From Neptunitalea lumnitzerae (GTDB lineage Bacteria; Bacteroidota; Bacteroidia; Flavobacteriales; Flavobacteriaceae): 64,000 bases of DNA. The first letter of the stretch is position 1. Every line of letters begins with the position of its first letter. Both the position numbers and the translations under genes were made by a program. The stretch spans positions 62,001-126,000 of the forward strand of contig NZ_BRVO01000002.1 of assembly GCF_027924185.1 (NCBI RefSeq). Direction: 5' to 3'. This document shows, piece by piece, positions 984-22,906 of this stretch. The notes below the pieces were generated by a model, which saw only the letters and a list, made by a program, of their open reading frames with translations, ran no database searches and was not told the DNA's origin.

Positions 984-2003
984 ATGAATAAACTGAAAAC
1001 TTATAATTTTCCTAAAATAGATTCATATATCAATCATCGAGAAGGGGAAATTAAACTAGGCGAAAAGGTTGACTATATAAATGACAATGATCCTGTAGAA
1101 AGTCAGCTTGAATTATCTAAGGCAAAGTATGTTGTTTTAGGAATACCTGAAAATCTTGGTATTAAAGCCGGATTGGGAGTAAGAGACGCAGCCTATACTT
1201 GGGAAGCAGCTTTACGTGCTTTGTTAAATGTACAACATAACAGATTTAATAAAGGAAAAAAATTATTAATATTAGGGCATCTTGATTTTGTAGATGAGGA
1301 AAATGAAGCTGCCGGACTGAACACCGAATCTGCCGAGGGAATTAAACAGTTAAAGAAAATTGTTGATACCATTGATAAAGAAGTAACCTACTGGGTACAA
1401 AAAATAGTAGCATCTGGTAAAACACCAATTATAATTGGTGGCGGACAAAATAATGCCTACGGTATTATTAAAGGATGTGCTTTAGCACTTAATAAACCTT
1501 TAAACGTGATTAACTTTGATGCCCATGCCGATTTATTAAAAATGAATGGGAGACATAGTGGTAATGCTTTTTCGTATGTTTTAAAAGAAGGCTTTATGAA
1601 AAAGTATTATATTTTTGGTATTCAGGAAAATCACGTACCAAAGTATGTTTTAAATACCATTAAAAAGAATAAAGACTTTATAAGATTTACCACCTTAGAA
1701 GAGCTTTTTATTAGAAGAGAAAAAGGAATTGATTTTGAACTTAACAGGGCGTATGAATTTGTAAAGAGTAGTGCCTTTGGGGTAGAAGTAGATTGTGATG
1801 TAATGACTAATTTCCCTTCTGATGCTATAAGTTTTAGTGGTTTTACACCTAGGGAGTTAAGACGCTCGGTTACACAATTTAGTAGTAGTAGTAATACTAC
1901 GTATTTGCACATATCTGAAGCAACACCAGATAGTGGTAGTAAATATGAAGCGCAACAAGTGGGAAGTTTTATATCTTGCCTTATTACAGATTTTATTCGT
2001 TAG
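984..2003 (+). CDS. Arginase/agmatinase/formiminoglutamase-family hydrolase
   Basis: This 339-residue ureohydrolase-fold protein resembles formimidoylglutamase, the last step of histidine breakdown. The fold's second metal motif is clear as DAHAD at 179-183, followed by H191. The third is DCD at 270-272 inside GVEVDCDVMTN. The first motif, normally GGDHS or GGGHE and supplying a histidine ligand, reads GGGQNN at 152-157, so that metal ligand appears replaced. The gene stands alone on the plus strand and its end overlaps the convergent small gene by 11 bp. No other hut gene is in the window, so the substrate is not supported by context. Family assignment is firm, formiminoglutamase is likely, arginase is possible. 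Confidence 0.85.
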   Translation: MNKLKTYNFPKIDSYINHREGEIKLGEKVDYINDNDPVESQLELSKAKYVVLGIPENLGIKAGLGVRDAAYTWEAALRALLNVQHNRFNKGKKLLILGHLDFVDEENEAAGLNTESAEGIKQLKKIVDTIDKEVTYWVQKIVASGKTPIIIGGGQNNAYGIIKGCALALNKPLNVINFDAHADLLKMNGRHSGNAFSYVLKEGFMKKYYIFGIQENHVPKYVLNTIKKNKDFIRFTTLEELFIRREKGIDFELNRAYEFVKSSAFGVEVDCDVMTNFPSDAISFSGFTPRELRRSVTQFSSSSNTTYLHISEATPDSGSKYEAQQVGSFISCLITDFIR

Positions 2004-2250
2004 TCTTTTTTTTTATTTTTTGAGGAGTCTCATCATTAAACAAACCACTAACAATAGTTTGTAAACCTCTAAAAGCCATATAAACCCCGAAAAAGCAAAG
2101 CGCTACGCCAATTATTAATATAGGGTAGAAAAGGGGTTTATCTTGATTTTTGAAACTAGAATGTATCACTACAGGTCCTATGAATATAGGAAGTAATGTT
2201 AATGATAGTCTAGTGATACCTTTTTTTATAAGTTCTCTATTTGTTGCCAT
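1993..2250 (-). CDS. Small two-TM membrane protein, DUF6095-like
   Basis: An 85-residue protein with two hydrophobic segments, at about residues 13-30 (LSLTLLPIFIGPVVIHS) and 40-62 (YPILIIGVALCFFGVYMAF), and a lysine-rich tail. The start ATG lies 14 bp inside the end of murQ, so it is translationally coupled and co-transcribed with murQ. From memory, flavobacteria often carry such a small protein (DUF6095 type) here. Its function is unknown. The stop overlaps the convergent hydrolase gene by 11 bp. Confidence 0.75.
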   Translation of the reverse strand: MATNRELIKKGITRLSLTLLPIFIGPVVIHSSFKNQDKPLFYPILIIGVALCFFGVYMAFRGLQTIVSGLFNDETPQKIKKKTNE

Positions 2251-3052
2251 AAGCTTCTATTGCTTTACGTACATTTTTATGTTCATTTAATAGGGTAGCA
2301 GCTTCTTCTTTAGATATGGGTAAGGCCTGCATAATCATTCTAATACCTCTATCTACCAATTTATCATTGCTCAATTGCATGTCTACCATTTTATTGCCTT
2401 TTACACGTCCTAGTTGTATCATGGTAGTGGTAGATAACATATTAAGCACTAATTTTTGTGCTGTACCTGCCTTCATACGTGAGCTTCCTGTTACAAATTC
2501 TGGTCCTACAACCACCTCTATAGGGTATTGTGCAGTATTAGCTAAGGGACTGCCTGCATTACAAGTAATGCATCCGGTAACAATGCCGTTTTTATTACAT
2601 TTTTCAAGAGCAGCAATTACATAAGGTGTGGTACCAGAGGCAGCTATACCAACAACCACATCGTTTGAACTTATGCTGTATGATTGTAAGTCTTCCCAGC
2701 CTTGAGTAGTGCTATCTTCTGCAAATTCTACGGCTTTTCTAATAGCAGTATCACCACCAGCTATAATACCTACTACTAAATCATAAGAAACACCAAAGGT
2801 AGGCGGGCATTCAGAGGCATCAACAATACCTAATCGTCCGCTAGTACCAGCTCCCATATAGAATAAGCGTCCACCTTGTCTTAATTTTAAAACTATCTGT
2901 TCGGTAAGTTTTTCAATTTGTCGTATTGCTTTTTCTACTGCTAAAGGTACTGTTTGGTCTTCTTTATTAATAGCGCTTAACAACGCTGAAATACTCATTT
3001 CTTCCAGGTTGTTGTAGTTAGAATCTTTTTCGGTAGTTCTTTCGTATTGCAT
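2237..3052 (-). CDS. murQ: N-acetylmuramic acid 6-phosphate etherase
   Basis: MurQ cleaves the lactyl ether of N-acetylmuramic acid 6-phosphate to give GlcNAc-6-phosphate and D-lactate during cell-wall recycling. The protein has 271 residues, close to the family length. It carries the SIS sugar-phosphate fold with FYMGAGTSGRLG near residue 64 and DASECPPTFG just after it, both typical of the family. The gene overlaps the following small membrane-protein gene by 14 bp. A strong terminator at 3087-3121 separates it from icd upstream. A TAATTTTG box at 3057-3064 lies only 4 bp before the ATG, so the mRNA may have almost no leader. Confidence 0.93.
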   Translation of the reverse strand: MQYERTTEKDSNYNNLEEMSISALLSAINKEDQTVPLAVEKAIRQIEKLTEQIVLKLRQGGRLFYMGAGTSGRLGIVDASECPPTFGVSYDLVVGIIAGGDTAIRKAVEFAEDSTTQGWEDLQSYSISSNDVVVGIAASGTTPYVIAALEKCNKNGIVTGCITCNAGSPLANTAQYPIEVVVGPEFVTGSSRMKAGTAQKLVLNMLSTTTMIQLGRVKGNKMVDMQLSNDKLVDRGIRMIMQALPISKEEAATLLNEHKNVRKAIEAYGNK

Positions 3053-3086
3053 GGTACAAAATTACAATTTCATGAAGTGATAACAT

Positions 3087-3121
3087 AAAAAAAAGCAACC
3101 GTATTACGGTTGCTTTTTTTT
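3087..3121 (-). terminator. Rho-independent terminator of icd
   Basis: An 11-bp stem (aaaagcaaccg at 3091-3101 with cggttgctttt at 3107-3117) closes a TATTA loop. A-runs and T-runs on the two sides make it able to act in both directions. It lies 20 bp past the icd stop codon. Confidence 0.9.
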
Positions 3122-3141
3122 ATAATGGATCGTTTTATAAA

Positions 3142-5367
<2,226 letters not shown>

Positions 5368-5400
5368 TTATAATAACTCTATATTTATTTGAAATGGAAA

Positions 5401-5408
5401 CAAATATA
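5401..5408 (-). promoter_or_regulatory. Bacteroidota -7 box of icd
   Basis: TATATTTG on the minus strand matches the TAnnTTTG consensus and sits about 43 bp before the icd ATG. No clear TTTG was found at the -33 position, so this rests on the -7 element alone. Confidence 0.5.
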
Positions 5409-5605
5409 CAATTTAATAGGCGTTTTTAAAATTTAGCTATGTATAGTTTTGGTAAGTACTATACAAAATTATCACTATGCATTAAATTATGTTAAGATAC
5501 TGGCAAAACCATAATTTTTAATGGTTTAATGGTGGTTGAGATGCAGAGTGTAAAACGTTGTATTATGTTAAAATTGAATTTCTTATGCTATCTAGAATTT
5601 TCTCT

Positions 5606-6250
5606 TTATTCTGAGATGGGAATAGTTGCAAATTTATAGCCTTCTAAAGCTGCGATTAATGGAAATAGCACATCAAAAAAGCTAAAGTTTTCAGTGAGTA
5701 AATCGGGTAGTTGTGAATAGTCTAAGTATGTAATAACTTCTAATAATGTTACGTCTTCAAACTTAGCTATTAATAAAAATAAGCTAAACACGTTACCCAA
5801 GAAACAACTAACAATAGCTATAAAAGCTCCTGTAATAGCAAATTTTTGTGATACGCCCTTACCTGTTATTCTCATGACATATCCCACACCAGCTCCTATA
5901 GCAATTGCCATATAACCAAATTGAATCATAAGAGCCACCGAGATGAGTCCCCACAAGATAGCACCTATAATACCAGTAATACCTCCGGCAATGCATGCTA
6001 AAGAATAATTCTCATGTTGTTTTAGTTCAGCAATTGACATGCCTTTATATGTTGTGGCTAGAATTTGCTCGTGGTTTACGTTACCATTTGAAGCTAAGAG
6101 TGCTTCTACTTGTGGATCCGGATTAAATTGTTCACAATTATCTGTGAATGTAGGTTTTGCATGAGTTAGGGTACAAACGATACCTTGTTTAGTATCTAGT
6201 TTACGATTTGTACATCTTTTACAAAATTGGTACTGTTCATTTGTAGTCAT
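5606..6250 (-). CDS. Zinc-ribbon-like plus membrane protein, unknown function
   Basis: A 214-residue protein. The N-terminus has four cysteines spaced as a small metal-binding ribbon (FCKRC at 9-13, IVC near 26, DNC near 39). A hydrophilic linker follows, then hydrophobic segments from about residue 84 to 165 (GGITGIIGAILWGLISVALM, YMAIAIGAGVGYVM, FIAIVSCFLGNVFSLFLLIA) that predict at least three membrane spans. I do not recognise a named family. The gene lies directly downstream of a candidate structured RNA with its own terminator (6285-6440), whose hairpin ends about 35 bp before the ATG, so expression may be controlled by attenuation. It is otherwise unlinked to its neighbours. Confidence 0.8.
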   Translation of the reverse strand: MTTNEQYQFCKRCTNRKLDTKQGIVCTLTHAKPTFTDNCEQFNPDPQVEALLASNGNVNHEQILATTYKGMSIAELKQHENYSLACIAGGITGIIGAILWGLISVALMIQFGYMAIAIGAGVGYVMRITGKGVSQKFAITGAFIAIVSCFLGNVFSLFLLIAKFEDVTLLEVITYLDYSQLPDLLTENFSFFDVLFPLIAALEGYKFATIPISE

Positions 6251-6284
6251 TGATTTTAGTTATTGGTTGGTAGGACTAAGGTAT

Positions 6285-6325
6285 AAAAAAACCCGTACTA
6301 AATCTTCATTAGTACGGGTTTTTCT
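6285..6325 (-). terminator. Intrinsic terminator upstream of the 5606-6250 gene
   Basis: A 10-bp GC-containing stem (cccgtacta arms) with flanking A and T runs, placed between rplS and the next gene on the same strand. It is a second terminator beyond the rplS one at 6503-6540, so it probably belongs to a separate transcript starting between them. Confidence 0.8.
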
Positions 6326-6440
6326 GAAAACTCCCGAAACCAGCGTTTAAACTTTTTAAGCTTAAACTGTAACCCTTGATTACTTCCGGTTTGTTCTCAA
6401 TTTAAAAATGAACTTTGAATGTTTTTCACTTTAGTATTCT
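6285..6440 (-). ncRNA. Candidate structured RNA or attenuator leader, family unknown
   Basis: Read on the minus strand, this stretch can fold with an outer gagaac/gttttc stem, an inner 7-bp stem aaaccgg/ctggttt, and two internal hairpins (gtaa/ttac and gtttaa/ttaaac). A perfect terminator follows: acccgtacta paired with tagtacgggt, then a T-run at 6285-6292. A possible -7-like TATCTTTAG with a TTG about 20 bp upstream lies near 6440-6475. It may be an independent small RNA or a riboswitch-like leader for the gene starting at 6250. It does not match any riboswitch consensus I know. Pairing was done by eye only. Confidence 0.45.
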
Positions 6441-6502
6441 AAAGATACTAATTATTTTTCAATATGTTACTAAATTGTTAAATTTTTTTGCGTAATATTT
6501 TA

Positions 6503-6540
6503 AAACAAAAAGCACCGCCTATTGGCAGTGCTTTAATATT
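6503..6540 (-). terminator. Terminator of rplS
   Basis: Stem aaagcac (6509-6515) plus gcc pairs with ggc plus gtgcttt (to 6534), with one mismatch and a TATT loop, followed on the minus strand by a T-rich run. It lies just past the rplS stop. Confidence 0.75.
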
Positions 6541-6556
6541 TTTCAGCGTGTTTAAA

Positions 6557-6907
6557 TTAGCGTCTAGCTTCTTTAATTCTTGCTTTTTTACCAGTAAGAC
6601 CTCTAAAGTAGAAAATACGAGCTCTTCTAACTTTACCTCTCTTGTTGATTTCAACTTTTTGTAATGCAGGCATGTTCACTGGGAAGATACGCTCTACACC
6701 AACAGTACCAGACATTTTTCTAATAGTGAAAGTTTCAGAAGCTCCAGCACCTCTTTTTTGAATAACAACACCTCTAAAGAACTGAGTACGTGTTTTTTCA
6801 CCTTCTTTAATTTCGTAATACACAGTAATTGTGTCACCTGCAGAAAACTCAGGAAATTCTTTTTTTGCTACAAACTCGTCTTGTACAAATTTAATTAACG
6901 ATTCCAT
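6557..6907 (-). CDS. rplS: 50S ribosomal protein L19
   Basis: The 116-residue L19 binds 23S rRNA at the interface of the large and small subunits. The family signature is complete: FSAGDTITVYYEIKEGEKTR, QFFRGVVIQKRGAG, the TFTIRKMSGTVGVERIFP block and the basic C-terminus. It is preceded by a good promoter (6983-7012) and a leader of about 70 nt with a hairpin, and followed by a terminator. It therefore forms its own unit rather than the rpsP-rimM-trmD-rplS operon of other phyla, although trmD lies directly upstream on the same strand. Confidence 0.98.
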   Translation of the reverse strand: MESLIKFVQDEFVAKKEFPEFSAGDTITVYYEIKEGEKTRTQFFRGVVIQKRGAGASETFTIRKMSGTVGVERIFPVNMPALQKVEINKRGKVRRARIFYFRGLTGKKARIKEARR

Positions 6908-6976
6908 TTTTAGATCATTTAAAAAAAGTTATTTCAAAGCAACATTCACGTACCTCGCCAGAGGTTACTCCAAAAG
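6908..6976 (-). promoter_or_regulatory. rplS 5' leader with conserved-looking hairpin
   Basis: The predicted transcript begins near 6976 and has about 69 nt before the ATG. Close to its 5' end lies a hairpin at 6950-6968: gta plus cctc pairs with gagg plus tac around a TGGC loop, with one bulged A. Autoregulatory L19 leaders have been predicted bioinformatically in Flavobacteria, and this element has the right place and size. Membership of that family was not tested. Confidence 0.5.
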
Positions 6977-6982
6977 TGGTTG

Positions 6983-7012
6983 CAAAATTAGTAATTAAAT
7001 CAATTTGTGCAA
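6983..7012 (-). promoter_or_regulatory. Promoter of rplS
   Basis: On the minus strand TTG (7012-7010), 19 bp, then TAATTTTG (6990-6983) matches the Bacteroidota vegetative promoter. It predicts a start near 6976. Confidence 0.7.
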
Positions 7013-7079
7013 CAGTTTATTATCAAAATTTTAAAGAAAGTTGAAACTTTTTTCTGTTTGTAAATCAGAAAGTTAACTT

Positions 7080-7757
7080 TTATTTGTCTAAAAGGTCAGG
7101 TCTTCTGGTTTTGGTGCGCTCGTAAGCTTCTTTCTCTCTCCATTCTTCAATCTTTGGAAAATTACCACTTAATAATATTTCTGGTACTTTCCATCCTTTA
7201 TAATCAGAAGGTCTTGTATATACTGGTGGAGCTAATAAATTATCCTGAAACGAATCGGTTAGGGCAGAGGTTTCATCATTTAAAACTCCCGGTAATAAAC
7301 GTATTACGGCATCACAAAATACTGCCGCACCTAACTCACCTCCTGATAATACATAATCTCCTATAGAAATTTCTTTGGTGATGAAATGATCTCTAACGCG
7401 TTGATCTACTCCTTTATAATGGCCGCAAAGAATAATTACATTTTCTTTTAAAGACATTGTGTTAGCAATGCCTTGGTTTAGAGTTTCTCCATCAGGAGTC
7501 ATATAAATAATCTCGTCGTAAGTGCGTTCTGCTTTTAGCTTAGAAATACATTTATCAATAGGCTCTATCATCATAACCATGCCTGCACCACCACCAAATT
7601 GGTAATCGTCTATTTGTTTATAATTGTCAGTAACGTAATCTCTAAGATTATGAAAATGTACCTCTACTAATCCTTTTTCAATAGCTCTCTTTAAAATAGA
7701 AGCTTCAAACGGACTTTTTAAAAGTTCTGGTAAAACGGTGATAATATCAATTCGCAT
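7080..7757 (-). CDS. trmD: tRNA (guanine-N1)-methyltransferase
   Basis: TrmD methylates G37 of tRNAs next to the anticodon, using SAM, and prevents frameshifting. I place the start at the ATG at 7757 ([12 protein letters not shown]), since the family begins with this strand; an ATG six codons upstream is also in frame. The product is 225 residues, the usual length. Key motifs are FGGGAGMVM (substrate and SAM trefoil-knot region), [13 protein letters not shown] and [15 protein letters not shown]. It follows the LVIVD lipoprotein gene by about 54 bp on the same strand. Confidence 0.96.
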
Positions 7758-7811
7758 GGTGCAATATTTTTGCAAAGGTGCAATTTTTTAAGCTACCATG
7801 CGAATTATTAT

Positions 7812-8555
7812 TTAAATAGCAATAGTACTTAGCTCTGTTATATTTTCTATGTTATTGCTGTCTAATAGATATTGATATACTCCTGTGTCTCCCACCAGTA
7901 TCAGTTGATTTCCATTTATAATAACATCAAATGCTTCTTTGTTAATACTTGTAACTAGTACGGAAGCTTCGGGATCTGAGACATCAAATATTTTTACTTC
8001 GTCATCACAAACTATTAAATAGTTATGGTATAATCCTAAACCTTTTGGGTATGTTAAATTTCTACTAGAAATTAATATAGGATTGGTTACATCGGTTACA
8101 TCATATATTTCTAGGCTATTAATATTGTTACCGCACCAGGTTTCAGAATGTAGCGTTACAAAAGCGTGTGTTAGGTTAGCAACAACGGGGTCACACGAAG
8201 TAAAATGCCATGCTTCACTTAAATAACTTGGCATTTCTGCATTGTCTATAGCATAAATGTACATACCGTTATTAGAGCCAATGTATAAGTAGTTACGGTA
8301 GTTAAAAATAGTTTCAATATTAAAACCTATGTTTACGGTATTTACTAAAACCGGATTGGTGTTATTAGTTACGCTAAATACTTTTAGGTTACTGTGATCT
8401 ACTGTGTACATGTAGTCTCCTACAACAATAAACCTAGCTAAAGAACCTGCTTTACCGGTATCACTACTTAAATTAGAAGAACTGAAGGAATCACTATCTT
8501 GACTACAAGCCATTAATAGCATAATGGTAAAAAAAGAGATGTAAAGTTTTTTCAT
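7812..8555 (-). CDS. LVIVD-repeat lipoprotein
   Basis: A 247-residue predicted lipoprotein: MKKLYISFFTIMLLMAC is a type II signal with the lipid cysteine at about residue 17, followed by SQDSDS. The acidic residues after the cysteine fit the Bacteroidota surface-export signal (inference). The body is a set of about 40-residue beta repeats with the pattern 'LxVFSVTNNTNPVLV', 'LEIYDVTDVTNPILIS', 'VKIFDVSDPEASVLV', which is the LVIVD repeat and suggests a beta-propeller. It starts 2 nt after the stop of the related gene upstream, so the two are one operon. No enzymatic residues are recognised. Confidence 0.85.
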   Translation of the reverse strand: MKKLYISFFTIMLLMACSQDSDSFSSSNLSSDTGKAGSLARFIVVGDYMYTVDHSNLKVFSVTNNTNPVLVNTVNIGFNIETIFNYRNYLYIGSNNGMYIYAIDNAEMPSYLSEAWHFTSCDPVVANLTHAFVTLHSETWCGNNINSLEIYDVTDVTNPILISSRNLTYPKGLGLYHNYLIVCDDEVKIFDVSDPEASVLVTSINKEAFDVIINGNQLILVGDTGVYQYLLDSNNIENITELSTIAI

Positions 8556-8557
8556 GA

Positions 8558-9079
8558 TTATTCTTTTAAGGTCCAGTTTACTATAATTTGATCGTTTCCT
8601 TCATAAAATTGATATCCATCTGGAGATAGCATTTGAGGAAAGGCATTTTCAATACGCTTTGTTATTTGAATAGTTTCTGAAGCATAATCCATTTGTAGTG
8701 CTACTAAATCTATTGCATTATTAATGTAAATGACATCGTTTTTAATGGCAATATCTGTAGCTCCAGGTACTTGAATAAAAGCTATCTGATTTGGGTTGGC
8801 AGGATTTGCGTTGTTGAAAACGTGAAAACCTTCATACTTTTCACCTATAAATAAGAAGTTGTCTTTTACATAAATTTTTCCGCTATTTTCAATTGATTTG
8901 CTTGGAGTAATTGCAACACTCTCCTGTAGCGCATCTCGTGTCATGTAAACAGGGTTGTACATAGATAATTCAAAAGAATCAACATTTACAATATCAACTT
9001 CGTCATTGGGTTCATACCAACAACTTTGTGCACTTACTAATAGTATTAGTGTGCTTAAAAGAATGAATGTTTTTTTCAT
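8558..9079 (-). CDS. Lipoprotein with LVIVD-like repeats, paired with the next gene
   Basis: The start is taken at the ATG at 9079, which gives MKKTFILLSTLILLVSAQSC and a good type II signal peptide; an upstream ATG at 9112 only adds 11 residues that do not look like a signal. The mature 150-odd residues contain two or so repeats like those of the downstream protein ('FHVFNNANPANPNQIAFI'). It is short for a propeller, so it may be a partner or a partial paralogue of the following protein, from which it is separated by 2 nt. Function unknown, probably cell envelope. Confidence 0.75.
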   Translation of the reverse strand: MKKTFILLSTLILLVSAQSCWYEPNDEVDIVNVDSFELSMYNPVYMTRDALQESVAITPSKSIENSGKIYVKDNFLFIGEKYEGFHVFNNANPANPNQIAFIQVPGATDIAIKNDVIYINNAIDLVALQMDYASETIQITKRIENAFPQMLSPDGYQFYEGNDQIIVNWTLKE

Positions 9080-20770: not shown

Positions 20771-20782
20771 GTGAACATGATA

Positions 20783-20867
20783 ATTCTGAATCAAGTTCAG
20801 AATGACGTTTATTGATGTTGTGATGATGAAACTTCCCGTCACCCTGAATTTAGTTCAGGGTCTCATT
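20783..20867 (+). repeat. Bipartite palindromic repeat, copy A
   Basis: It has two hairpins in fixed order: attctgaa/ttcagaat with a 5-nt loop, then about 45 nt of shared linker (cgtttattgatgttgtgatg and onwards), then accctgaa/ttcagggt with a 5-nt loop and a shared tctcat end. The same unit occurs twice more within 1 kb in the same orientation. Confidence 0.85.
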
Positions 20868-20937
20868 GGAGTGAATTTTTCATCACTTAGATAAGTAAGT
20901 TAGAAAGTCTATTTTGTATTTATGAGCTAGTTGTAGG

Positions 20938-21019
20938 ATTCTGAATCAAGTTCAGAATGACGTGTATTGGTATTGTGTTGGAGAAACTTCCGTTACCCTG
21001 AATTTATTTCAGGGTCTAA
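20938..21019 (+). repeat. Bipartite palindromic repeat, copy B
   Basis: This is the same two-hairpin unit as copy A with several changes in the linker (gtgtattggtattgtgttgg) and in the second loop (tttat). The 12 bases before it (agctagttgtag) resemble those before copy C. The copy lies directly downstream of the lipoprotein gene's stop. Confidence 0.85.
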
Positions 21020-21032
21020 TCTTATTGATAGC

Positions 21033-21563
21033 CTAATCTAGGTGTGCTGAAAAAAAAATTTCAGAGAGAATATTATTTTTAAACATAAACTTAAAAACGT
21101 ATGTATTTTCTAAATTACCAACCTCTATGGTATCATTGTTTACTTTTTGTTTTATAATTTTTTCAAATTTACTTTTGGGAATACCTACAGTTATATAGTT
21201 GCCTATAAAAAAGTTATTATCTGTTATTTTTGCTTTATACAAGGTTTCTTTAAAACTTGATTTATATATTTCAAAGTAGCTTTTTTTGAAGCTTTTCTTA
21301 ACAAGTGTATCAATGATTAAAGTGTCTTTGATATGTTTATTTTTTATAGTTTCTTTTTTTGTTTTTAATAAGTGTTTTGAAGTAAGAACATACAAATCAT
21401 TCAAAAAAGTTTCTGTTAAGGAATCATTAGAAATATAGTTGGTTTTTTCAAGCTTCACTTTTGATGTGCTCGTAGATTTGATGCTATCATTCTCTACTTT
21501 TTGGTTGCAACAAATTAATGAGCAAATTATTCCTATAAAGACTAATTGTTTCAGATGTCTCAT
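21033..21563 (-). CDS. Orphan predicted lipoprotein between repeats
   Basis: A 176-residue protein that starts MRHLKQLVFIGIICSLICCNQKV, a plausible lipoprotein signal with the lipid cysteine at 18 or 19. The rest is rich in K, S, N, T and I, has no recognised domain, and includes YFEIYKSSFKETLYKAKITDNNFFIGNYITVGIPKSKFEKI. The local sequence is more AT-rich than its neighbours. Repeat copy B lies just past its end and copy C about 70 bp before its start, so the gene could have moved together with the repeats. No function is proposed. Confidence 0.65.
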   Translation of the reverse strand: MRHLKQLVFIGIICSLICCNQKVENDSIKSTSTSKVKLEKTNYISNDSLTETFLNDLYVLTSKHLLKTKKETIKNKHIKDTLIIDTLVKKSFKKSYFEIYKSSFKETLYKAKITDNNFFIGNYITVGIPKSKFEKIIKQKVNNDTIEVGNLENTYVFKFMFKNNILSEIFFSAHLD

Positions 21564-21633
21564 ATTAATTTTTTTTAAATATATATAAAAAATAGGGATG
21601 TTAAAATGTAATTTTTTGTAAGCTACTTGTGAG

Positions 21634-21716
21634 ATTCTGAATCAAGTTCAGAATGACGTTTATTGGTGTTGTGATGATGAAACTTCCGTCACCCTGAATT
21701 TAGTTCAGGGTCTCAT
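21634..21716 (+). repeat. Bipartite palindromic repeat, copy C
   Basis: Nearly identical to copy A over both hairpins and the linker (cgtttattggtgttgtgatgatgaaacttc in two parts), in the same orientation. It lies in the 295-bp space between the lipoprotein gene and the DUF4062 gene. Confidence 0.85.
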
Positions 21717-21858
21717 CAGAGTTAGTTTAACGATAAAATTAATTGTATTGACAAAATAATTTTTTTCAAATTTCCCTTTTCAATAAAAACTTTAAATTTG
21801 AGTAACTTCTTTAGGATAGAGATTTGTGGAGATTCAATATTAATAATCTAGTAGTAAA

Positions 21859-22812
21859 ATGGCTAAACCAAGGATATTTATTAGTTCTACTTATTATGAT
21901 TTACGTCAAGTAAGAGCGGATATAGAAAGATTTATAAAAGATTTAGGTTACGACCCTGTACTTAACGAACATGGAGATATTCCATATGGTAGTGAAGATA
22001 AACTTGAGGATTATTGTTATAAAGAAATAAATAATGTAGATATCCTTGTTTCAATTATTGGTGGTAGATATGGAACGGAAAGTAATAAGGAAAAAAATTC
22101 CATTTCTCAAATGGAATTAAAAACTGCATTTGAATTGAATAAGCAAGTATATATTTTTATTGAAAAGAGCATTTATAGTGAATACTATTTTTATTTAAAA
22201 AATAAGGGCAATGATAGTGTTAAATTGTATTATGCTGATAATATAAAAATTCATGAGTTTATCGATATGGTAAAAGCTTTACCAAATAATAATACCATAC
22301 ATGGGTTTGAAACTTCATCAGATATAACACAATTTTTAAAGGTACAATGGGCAGGATTGTTTCAAAGATTTTTACAAGAACAAACTAGGTTAAAGGAGTT
22401 GAACGTAATAAAGGGTATTGAAGCTACTTCAAAAACATTAAATCAACTAGTAACTTTTTTAACAGAAGAGAAAAGAGGAACAAATGAAGCTATTAATGAG
22501 ATTCTTTTAAGTAATCACCCAGCAATGGAACAGATAAAAGTTTTACTAAGTATTCCGTATAGGGTGTTTTTTATGAATTTAGAAGAGTTCACGGATTTGA
22601 TAATCGCAAGAGGTTTTAAAAAGGAGCTTACTTTCGAAAATCATGTATTTGTTCAGCAGAAGAAATCATCTAAAATTACTTTAACTGTTGATGAATCTAT
22701 ATTTAATGGAGATGGTAAGTTAAAAGTCTACACAAAAGAAGAGTGGAAGACAGAATATATCCAGATAGAGGAGAAAGAAGATGAAGATGAATTTGGGGAT
22801 TTACCTTTTTAA
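21859..22812 (+). CDS. DUF4062-domain protein with SSB-like acidic C-terminal tail
   Basis: A 317-residue protein. Residues 4-100 form a DUF4062 domain: RIFISSTYYDLRQVR at 5-19, DILVSIIGGRYGTES at 61-75 and SISQMELKTA at 81-90 with Glu86. The fold pattern recalls TIR and nucleoside-deoxyribosyltransferase folds, which is inference. The remainder is helical with a small beta part. The last ten residues, DEDEFGDLPF, resemble the SSB C-terminal tip that recruits repair and replication proteins. DUF4062 is known as an N-terminal domain of predicted STAND-type NTPases, but no NTPase motif is seen here. A TAAATTTG box at 21793-21800 is a possible -7 element. The gene sits beside the repeats, unlike the core genes around it. 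Confidence 0.85.
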   Translation: MAKPRIFISSTYYDLRQVRADIERFIKDLGYDPVLNEHGDIPYGSEDKLEDYCYKEINNVDILVSIIGGRYGTESNKEKNSISQMELKTAFELNKQVYIFIEKSIYSEYYFYLKNKGNDSVKLYYADNIKIHEFIDMVKALPNNNTIHGFETSSDITQFLKVQWAGLFQRFLQEQTRLKELNVIKGIEATSKTLNQLVTFLTEEKRGTNEAINEILLSNHPAMEQIKVLLSIPYRVFFMNLEEFTDLIIARGFKKELTFENHVFVQQKKSSKITLTVDESIFNGDGKLKVYTKEEWKTEYIQIEEKEDEDEFGDLPF

Positions 22813-22836
22813 ATAAACTATAATGTTTTTTATTTA

Positions 22837-22874
22837 CTATGAAGAACCGGCTCATAAGAGGCGGTTCTTCATAG
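22837..22874. terminator. Hairpin between DUF4062 gene and clpB
   Basis: A perfect 13-bp stem (ctatgaagaaccg with cggttcttcatag) encloses a 12-nt loop between two convergent genes. It lacks a long T-run, so its termination strength is uncertain. Confidence 0.65.
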
Positions 22875-22906
22875 CAATTTTTAATTTATACTTGTAATAG
22901 TGAAGT

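Follow-up and report, generated by a model that had tools for sequence, protein, structure and literature searches.

A probable anti-phage suicide enzyme of the DUF4062 family with an SSB-like C-terminal tip in Neptunitalea lumnitzerae

Genomic Locus

The analyzed window (64,000 bp of the contig NZ_BRVO01000002.1 of Neptunitalea lumnitzerae) contains a gene encoding a DUF4062 protein. The coordinates of this gene, of the predicted parts of its product and of the neighboring repeats are given in Table 1. The adjoining gene is one that we take to be clpB, a label drawn from sequence only. Both flanking genes are located on the opposite strand, and an operon partner was therefore rejected. The inverted repeat in the interval between the DUF4062 gene and clpB is possibly a terminator common to these two genes; the terminator scan made no call there.

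Table 1. Coordinates of the DUF4062 gene, the parts of its product and the neighboring repeats in the window.
Feature	Position	Strand	Remarks
DUF4062 protein gene	21859..22812	+	317 aa; open ORF, ATG start
DUF4062 (TIR-like NADase) domain	21871..22128	+	residues 5-90 by Pfam
Glu86 codon, predicted catalytic glutamate	22114..22116	+	aligns with KpSwz Glu97
Predicted long helix (stalk), residues 153-203	22315..22467	+	model
Predicted C-terminal alpha/beta (auxiliary) domain, residues 209-307	22483..22779	+	model
Acidic tail DEDEFGDLPF, residues 308-317	22780..22809	+	SSB-tip-like D-L-P-F at 22798-22809
Intergenic repeat, copy 1	20783..20878	.	
Intergenic repeat, copy 2	20938..21032	.	
Intergenic repeat, copy 3	21634..21728	.	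upstream of the DUF4062 gene
Inverted repeat between the DUF4062 gene and clpB	22834..22877	.	20-nt arms 90% complementary, 4-nt loop

An earlier reading of the sequence only had described this part of the window as accessory-looking and containing a repeat cluster, and both descriptions were borne out. The G+C content of the region 20771-22906 is 27.8% versus 33.2% for the whole window, and the cluster consists of three copies of an intergenic repeat of ~97 nt. A search for the 22-nt repeat core with up to three mismatches revealed no further site within the window. The repeats cluster around a small AT-rich gene (21033-21563, minus strand; G+C content 24.5%), for which a Pfam scan returned no match. 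Judged by eye, the neighbors in the window have a housekeeping or unknown look and none of them resembles a defence gene. Among the 60 nearest genomes, the 59 other than that of the window yielded no match to the window protein at E <= 0.001. In the one genome of the same genus (locus L177), a ClpB fragment is 95% identical and other ORFs fill the 1.5 kb downstream of clpB. Some of these are small ORFs that by eye resemble a toxin-antitoxin pair, and this position may thus be a variable slot. In addition, inspection by eye of the neighborhoods of seven tip-bearing relatives (L080-L086) found no recurring partner gene. The gene at 21859-22812 reads as an accessory locus of one gene.

Domain Architecture and Predicted Fold

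The Pfam family DUF4062 (PF13271) was found in the protein with an E-value of 2.5e-19 and a score of 69.7 bits, above the cut-off of 24.7, and the protein was assigned to this family. The sequence-only reading had linked the domain to STAND NTPases; this part did not hold, since Pfam finds no NTPase domain and DUF4062 is alone in the 317 aa. An SSB paralogue was likewise rejected, because no OB-fold domain was found (Pfam at E up to 1 gives DUF4062 alone); a genome search with the SSB family PF00436 returned two loci, neither of which is the DUF4062 gene. A comparison with the PADLOC and NCBIfam models gave zero matches at E up to 1.

According to the accessible text of a 2026 preprint (PMC13174449), DUF4062 proteins are TIR-like NADases with anti-phage activity that constitute the system Swarozyc. 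Its Klebsiella pneumoniae representative, KpSwz, responds to a phage portal by means of an auxiliary domain at its C-terminus; the activated protein depletes NAD+ and thereby kills the infected cell, for which Glu97 is needed. The family profile of the window protein finds the KpSwz chain 10wc_A in the PDB (E 4.5e-5, profile positions 5-103). Glu86 of the window protein is aligned with an alanine of 10wc_A, which was taken as E97A; note that the KpSwz numbering was derived by hand from the printed alignment as the chain index plus 13. This glutamate is invariant in the alignment of the full-length family (10 of 10 members).

Modeling of the full-length protein using AlphaFold2 led to a model of middling confidence (pLDDT 71, pTM 0.46), in which a TIR-like fold spans about residues 1-152 and the last six residues have a pLDDT below 50. 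Fold searches with this model matched TIR domains, DNPH1 and other NDT-fold enzymes. Foldseek found the RPS4/RRS1 TIR domain at an E-value of 8e-5, and VIA-align found DNPH1 (Z 13.4, 124 aligned residues, rmsd 2.6), the SPARTA TIR domain (Z 11.6-12.6) and the SARM1 TIR domain (Z 11.4). KpSwz was not among the best 50 matches listed in either full-length fold search (library to 8 April 2026). Thus, the TIR-like nature proposed for the domain is supported by the fold searches, the profile match to KpSwz and the preprint PMC13174449, in its accessible text.

The C-terminal domain was also modeled separately (pLDDT 73). The best matches in its fold search, both with Z 5.0, were AcrID1 (76 aligned residues, rmsd 3.4) and SIFV ORF14 (79 aligned residues, rmsd 4.2), and no solved fold was convincingly similar (best Foldseek E 0.31). 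The profile search with this domain returned a single weak match (E 0.46). The Kalirin entries obtained by profile search (E 0.014-0.019, at profile positions 191-287) were regarded as fortuitous.

The Acidic C-Terminus and Its Background Frequency

Translation of the ORF confirmed that the 317-aa DUF4062 protein ends in the residues DEDEFGDLPF, as first noticed, and the description of this end as SSB-like was upheld by the two SSB-family matches of the same genome, which end in EEEEDDLPF and KETEDDLPF. A C-terminus of the type [DE][LIV]PF is expected by chance in about 5e-5 of proteins, as estimated from the residue composition of 11 window genes. A stricter pattern, [DE][DE]x[L/F]PF followed by a stop (TGG also being accepted as the last codon), gave three matches in the whole genome, namely the two SSBs and one site that is not a gene end, because a single open codon precedes it. 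The window gene is absent from these matches because it ends in GDLPF.

As a control, 246 ORFs with a minimum length of 120 aa were picked mechanically from 16 sequences (the window, L080-L090, L003 and L077-L079), several of which had been chosen since the tip had already been seen there. A PF end was found in 13 of the 246 ORFs, all of them encoding DUF4062 proteins (12 distinct ones, as L003 and L084 carry the same gene), and in none of the 233 remaining entries, which include the tipless DUF4062 proteins of L078, L079 and L087 as well as duplicate entries from L003 and L084. Because the sequences were picked for their DUF4062 genes, the control gauges the background rate of PF ends and not the rate among DUF4062 proteins. 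Fisher tests ignore relatedness, which makes their p values too small; reliance was therefore placed on the pattern of conservation.

Conservation of the Tip in the Full-Length Family

Relatives were sought with the protein P0001 in 395 order-level genomes and with profiles in 395 phylum-level genomes, 246 family-level genomes (family of G367), 249 genus-level genomes (genus of G260), 98 class-level genomes (class of G505) and 397 family-level genomes, these sets being overlapping, and viral contigs were searched likewise. In the larger genome searches no more than 5 or 9 first-look candidates per genome were scored, so that relatives may be missed. Full-length relatives proved scarce, being found in at least seven genomes, including that of the window (G000, G260, G411, G367, G505, G828 and G851), and on the viral contigs L077, L078 and L079. 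The gene of G851 is identical to the gene L003 of Empedobacter brevis, which belongs to the same order as the window organism; on this ground, the phylum of these genomes was taken to be Bacteroidota.

In the phylogenetic tree, the full-length family forms one clade of ten members with a support of 100/99. An acidic [L/I]PF end is kept in eight of them, while their C-terminal domains are 27-59% identical to that of the window protein. The ends are FGDLPF in the window protein, EDNLPF in L003/L084, KDDLPF in L083, DDEIPF in L077 and DDDLPF in L080, L081, L082 and L085. The residue before [LI]PF is acidic, except in L003, where it is an asparagine preceded by an aspartate. The linker ahead of the tip varies in length between members. 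The codons of the leucine and proline of the tip vary synonymously, the amino acids being constant. In the nine aligned C-terminal domains, the terminal phenylalanine is present in all nine and the proline in eight, whereas the pairwise identity per column averages 0.37. The two exceptions are L078, which ends in NDDVEAIF and retains the C-terminal domain without PF, and L079, which ends in PSDFKN and has a C-terminal half different from the rest of the family.

Thus, the question raised by the sequence-only reading, namely whether homologues share the tip, is answered positively for eight of the ten full-length members and negatively for L078 and L079. Tipless homologues of similar length had been named there as evidence against the tip, and these two are such proteins, but both are nested inside the tip-bearing clade and are therefore read as losses. 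The retention of the tip in most full-length relatives suggests that it may be a working docking or bait peptide. Note that the tree pairs members across families and classes, namely G411 with G505 (81/93) and G260 with G367 (99/97), and these pairings, together with the patchy distribution, fit horizontal transfer.

The Tip Among Other DUF4062 Proteins

To count the tip across DUF4062 proteins, we took ORFs of 100 aa or more whose stop lies inside the locus and merged those with equal last 60 residues; ORFs running off the locus (eight rows in one listing) and a 40-aa fragment (L016/L058) were left out. A PF end was found in 13 of the resulting 81 distinct ORFs with a complete 3' end, and 68 lacked the tip, which is therefore not required for the general function of DUF4062. 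The 13 ORFs comprise eight members of the main family, two members of a second subfamily (L086 ending in DDDLPF and L154 ending in DDLPF) and three members of a third group, in which the tips are weaker (L089, DELPF; L090, SELPF; L165, TGLPF), to which the tipless L053 and L087 also belong.

It might be supposed that the tip has no role as an interaction motif, being either a signal for degradation or a fortuitous product of an acidic, variable tail. The many tipless DUF4062 ORFs (68 of 81) and the weakly acidic ends in the third group, such as TGLPF and SELPF, speak for this, but the absence of PF ends from the 233 other control entries and the conservation of the tip in a divergent clade, with synonymous codon changes, make it hardly credible. 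A tip arisen by chance was rejected on the basis of the neighborhood control, the conservation in the divergent clade and the composition estimate.

The two proteins of the second subfamily, P0003 (G295, DDDLPF) and P0004 (G466, DDLPF; its start is cut by the contig end), are 38% identical to each other. The BLASTP alignment of P0003 with P0001 is confined to the TIR region and the beginning of the stalk. As no C-terminal similarity between P0003 and P0001 is detectable, the tip is borne on two different C-terminal parts. On the tree, the tip label needs five changes, four of which are forced by well-supported branches, gains and losses being undistinguished; the branch of L086 is long and its placement is unsure.

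These data also bear on an internal role of the tip, in which it would plug a pocket of its own or a neighboring subunit and hold the NADase off, its likeness to SSB being superficial. Such a plug would agree with the observation that the tip accompanies the C-terminal domain (L079, in which this part is different, is tipless) and with the autoinhibited oligomers described for KpSwz in the accessible text of PMC13174449. On the other hand, the second subfamily bears the same tip on a dissimilar C-terminal part, L078 retains the C-terminal domain without PF, and the monomer model has low confidence at the tip, so that we regard a plug as quite improbable.

Outside these groups, no tip was found in the DUF4062 matches from Agrobacterium, Methylomonas and Rhizobium that were examined to the C-terminus, nor in one of four records from Enterococcus and one of two phage-labelled records from Acinetobacter that were examined to this point. 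When viral contigs were searched, the main family gained three relatives, whereas P0001 alone, P0003 and P0005 gained none. In addition, a tipless DUF4062 gene is located on an Enterococcus plasmid (L161, 2983-4161), flanked by a Fic-family gene on one side and an AbrB/death-on-curing pair on the other, with an annotated aminoglycoside resistance gene nearby.

Comparison of the Tips with Host SSB Proteins

The ends of SSB-family proteins were compared in 12 genomes with a tip-bearing or related DUF4062 protein. In 11 of these genomes at least one SSB-family protein ends in [LI]PF (LPF in ten, IPF in one); counted by rows, this is the case for 16 of 29 SSB-family matches. Seven LPF members come from genomes of the phylum of the window organism. 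In G466, KDDLPF is the end of the SSB and of the DUF4062 protein alike. In G367 (L101, C43), the sole SSB-family match ends in MDLDD without PF, and the DUF4062 protein ends in DDDLPF.

The single IPF member, L077, ends in SDFDDEIPF, and the SSB of Escherichia coli ends in MDFDDDIPF (PMC10018359, accessible text). The contig of L077 is of a Halomonas phage type; its primase is 89.5% identical to that of the Halomonas phage vB_HmeY_H4907, and the DUF4062 gene of L077 is located after an S24 repressor gene. The DNA of this DUF4062 gene was unmatched in E. coli genomes, and phage searches with P0001 and the L077 protein revealed no Halomonas record among the matches listed. The region around the S24 repressor in H4907 contains no annotated DUF4062 protein and no DUF4062 start motif in six frames. 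As judged from these ends, the tip type of the DUF4062 proteins agrees with the SSB type, for LPF in the phylum of the window organism and for the single IPF member by comparison with E. coli.

Defence Context of the Relatives

When chosen neighbors were scanned, matches to defence models were found near five of the ten family loci: PDC-S35 and a Pycsar-type TIR protein at L084, an AriA/PtuA-like ATPase at L081, a type III restriction-modification system and Fic at L085, Thoeris, TIR-TM and KAP at L078, and SIR2 at L079. The neighbors of L080 and L083 have a housekeeping or unknown look by eye, and L082 adjoins an integrase.

Several of these loci have further features. The contig of L078, labelled as viral in IMG/VR, reads as a defence island with a KAP NTPase, the PF-less DUF4062 protein and TIR-TM, and its Thoeris genes comprise two ThsA-like and two ThsB-like genes. 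In L085, four genes encoding proteins of 355-696 aa (1896-8942) are located upstream of the DUF4062 member and the type III restriction-modification system; they gave no PADLOC match and no Pfam match above the cut-off. The phage contig of L079 contains a cluster (4207-6939) of a SIR2-like gene and the DUF4062 member with the different C-terminus, together with a small gene whose product by eye looks membrane-bound; the preceding ORF is terminase-like by eye.

The surroundings of the relatives are also relevant to a reading without a special anti-phage role, according to which the protein would be a suicide switch for DNA damage or replication stress, in which the tip tethers the NADase to proteins of DNA repair and massive amounts of ssDNA act as the trigger. 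The known partners of the SSB tip do serve repair, recombination and restart, as stated in the accessible text of PMC10018359. The patchy distribution, the adjacency to a phage repressor and the defence neighbors of the relatives nevertheless fit a phage conflict better, and we give such a switch very little probability.

Proposed Function

All these characteristics allow us to assume that the product of the DUF4062 gene is probably a bacterial anti-phage suicide enzyme. More specifically, it could be a one-gene, horizontally moving, Swarozyc-like TIR-NADase of abortive infection, the tip of which docks on an SSB-tip-binding protein serving ssDNA; we place the chances of this reading at even. 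For the window protein, we infer the tip binding, the identity of the partner, the activation step and the anti-phage role as follows. The N-terminal TIR-like domain would be the effector, hydrolyzing NAD+ by means of Glu86, the long helix would assemble the protein, and the C-terminal domain with the flexible acidic D-L-P-F tip would form the sensing or targeting part. As a copy of the SSB C-terminal tip, this tip could dock the protein into the pocket otherwise occupied by that of SSB, in a partner that serves ssDNA, which may be a host RecQ-, RecO-, PriA- or RecG-like protein or a phage equivalent. Phage replication would then cluster or alter this partner, the NADase domains would align and NAD+ would be destroyed.

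In a second version, the tip would serve as an integrated bait instead of reaching for a host partner: it would be bound by a phage protein which attacks or exploits the SSB-tip interface, and this binding would switch on the NADase. Integrated decoys of plant immune receptors act in such a way. Candidate binders would be a phage annealase or recombinase, a helicase loader or an inhibitor. The tip resembles the host-type SSB tip, as a bait must. In addition, the accessible texts of three sources report that DUF4062 proteins can sense phage proteins via their C-terminal part (PMC13174449), that phage proteins using the SSB tail exist, such as the Sak annealase of phage 80alpha (PMC11846896), and that several defence systems are triggered by phage SSBs (PMC13381803). 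However, the systems triggered by phage SSBs are not described in the accessible text of PMC13381803 as using a copy of the tip, and on the whole we consider the bait unlikely. The sequence alone does not discriminate between a tether to a host partner or its phage equivalent and a pure phage bait, and both predict that removal of PF abolishes a part of the phenotype.

Taken more broadly, the protein could be an immune receptor of the integrated-decoy type, that is, a DUF4062 NADase with a copy of the host SSB tip, serving as bait or tether and present on at least two subfamilies, in which seizure by a phage of the SSB-tip interface or of SSB partners would lead to NAD+ loss. We regard this broader reading as doubtful, though a real possibility. 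The bait may be tuned to the kind of SSB found in the host lineage, with LPF or, in one member, IPF. If true, this would be a bacterial immune receptor bearing a copy of the host interface under its protection.

Comparison with Known Systems

The short acidic C-terminus of the window protein ending in D-L-P-F is of the same type as the tips of the SSBs of its own genome, whereas the protein itself lacks the OB fold of an SSB (DUF4062 only by Pfam). According to the accessible text of PMC10018359, the proline and phenylalanine are the most conserved residues of the E. coli SSB tip, and a change of Pro to Ser or deletion of the tip disrupts partner binding. An SSB-like C-terminal motif has also been proposed for a protein outside the SSB family, DdrB of Deinococcus (PMC3834827, accessible text); unlike the window protein, DdrB is a DNA-annealing protein and no NADase. 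Its motif was reported there to be dispensable for radioresistance, a case which, by analogy, counsels caution in reading function into an SSB-like motif.

In the accessible text of PMC11846896, annealing by Sak of phage 80alpha depends on the C-terminal domain of Sak and on the final residues of the tail of the phage SSB, and the mimicry described concerns the ring shape and not the SSB tip. Phage SSBs have been reported as triggers of Hna, Hachiman, Nhi, Retron-Eco8 and AbpAB (PMC13381803, accessible text). These systems share with the proposed one a tie between the biology of ssDNA-binding proteins and abortive infection, but they are reported to respond to phage SSBs, and in the accessible text of that source no tail or tip at the C-terminus comes up. 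No case of an SSB-tip copy in defence proteins was found among the papers listed in searches of the open-access literature.

The closest comparison is with Swarozyc (PDB 10wc, 11cq and 11cv). Both proteins have an N-terminal DUF4062 TIR-like domain with an aligned catalytic glutamate, a similar length (317 aa for the window protein versus a chain of 326 residues for KpSwz), a helix followed by a C-terminal auxiliary part and a patchy distribution. However, the profile match to KpSwz is limited to residues 5-103 of the family of the window protein. For the C-terminal domain, where KpSwz has a portal-binding winged helix (PMC13174449, accessible text), the fold and profile searches gave no convincing match. 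The main text of PMC13174449, as far as accessible, does not mention SSB, single-stranded DNA, a C-terminal tail or a tip. Defence by DUF4062 NADases is thus already known as a kind of system from that preprint, in which one trigger, the phage portal, is reported so far. As far as our searches reach, what is new is that an SSB-type tip is conserved in a clade of immune-type DUF4062 proteins and also occurs in a second subfamily; such a tip would suggest that the SSB hub forms another class of trigger or target besides the portal.
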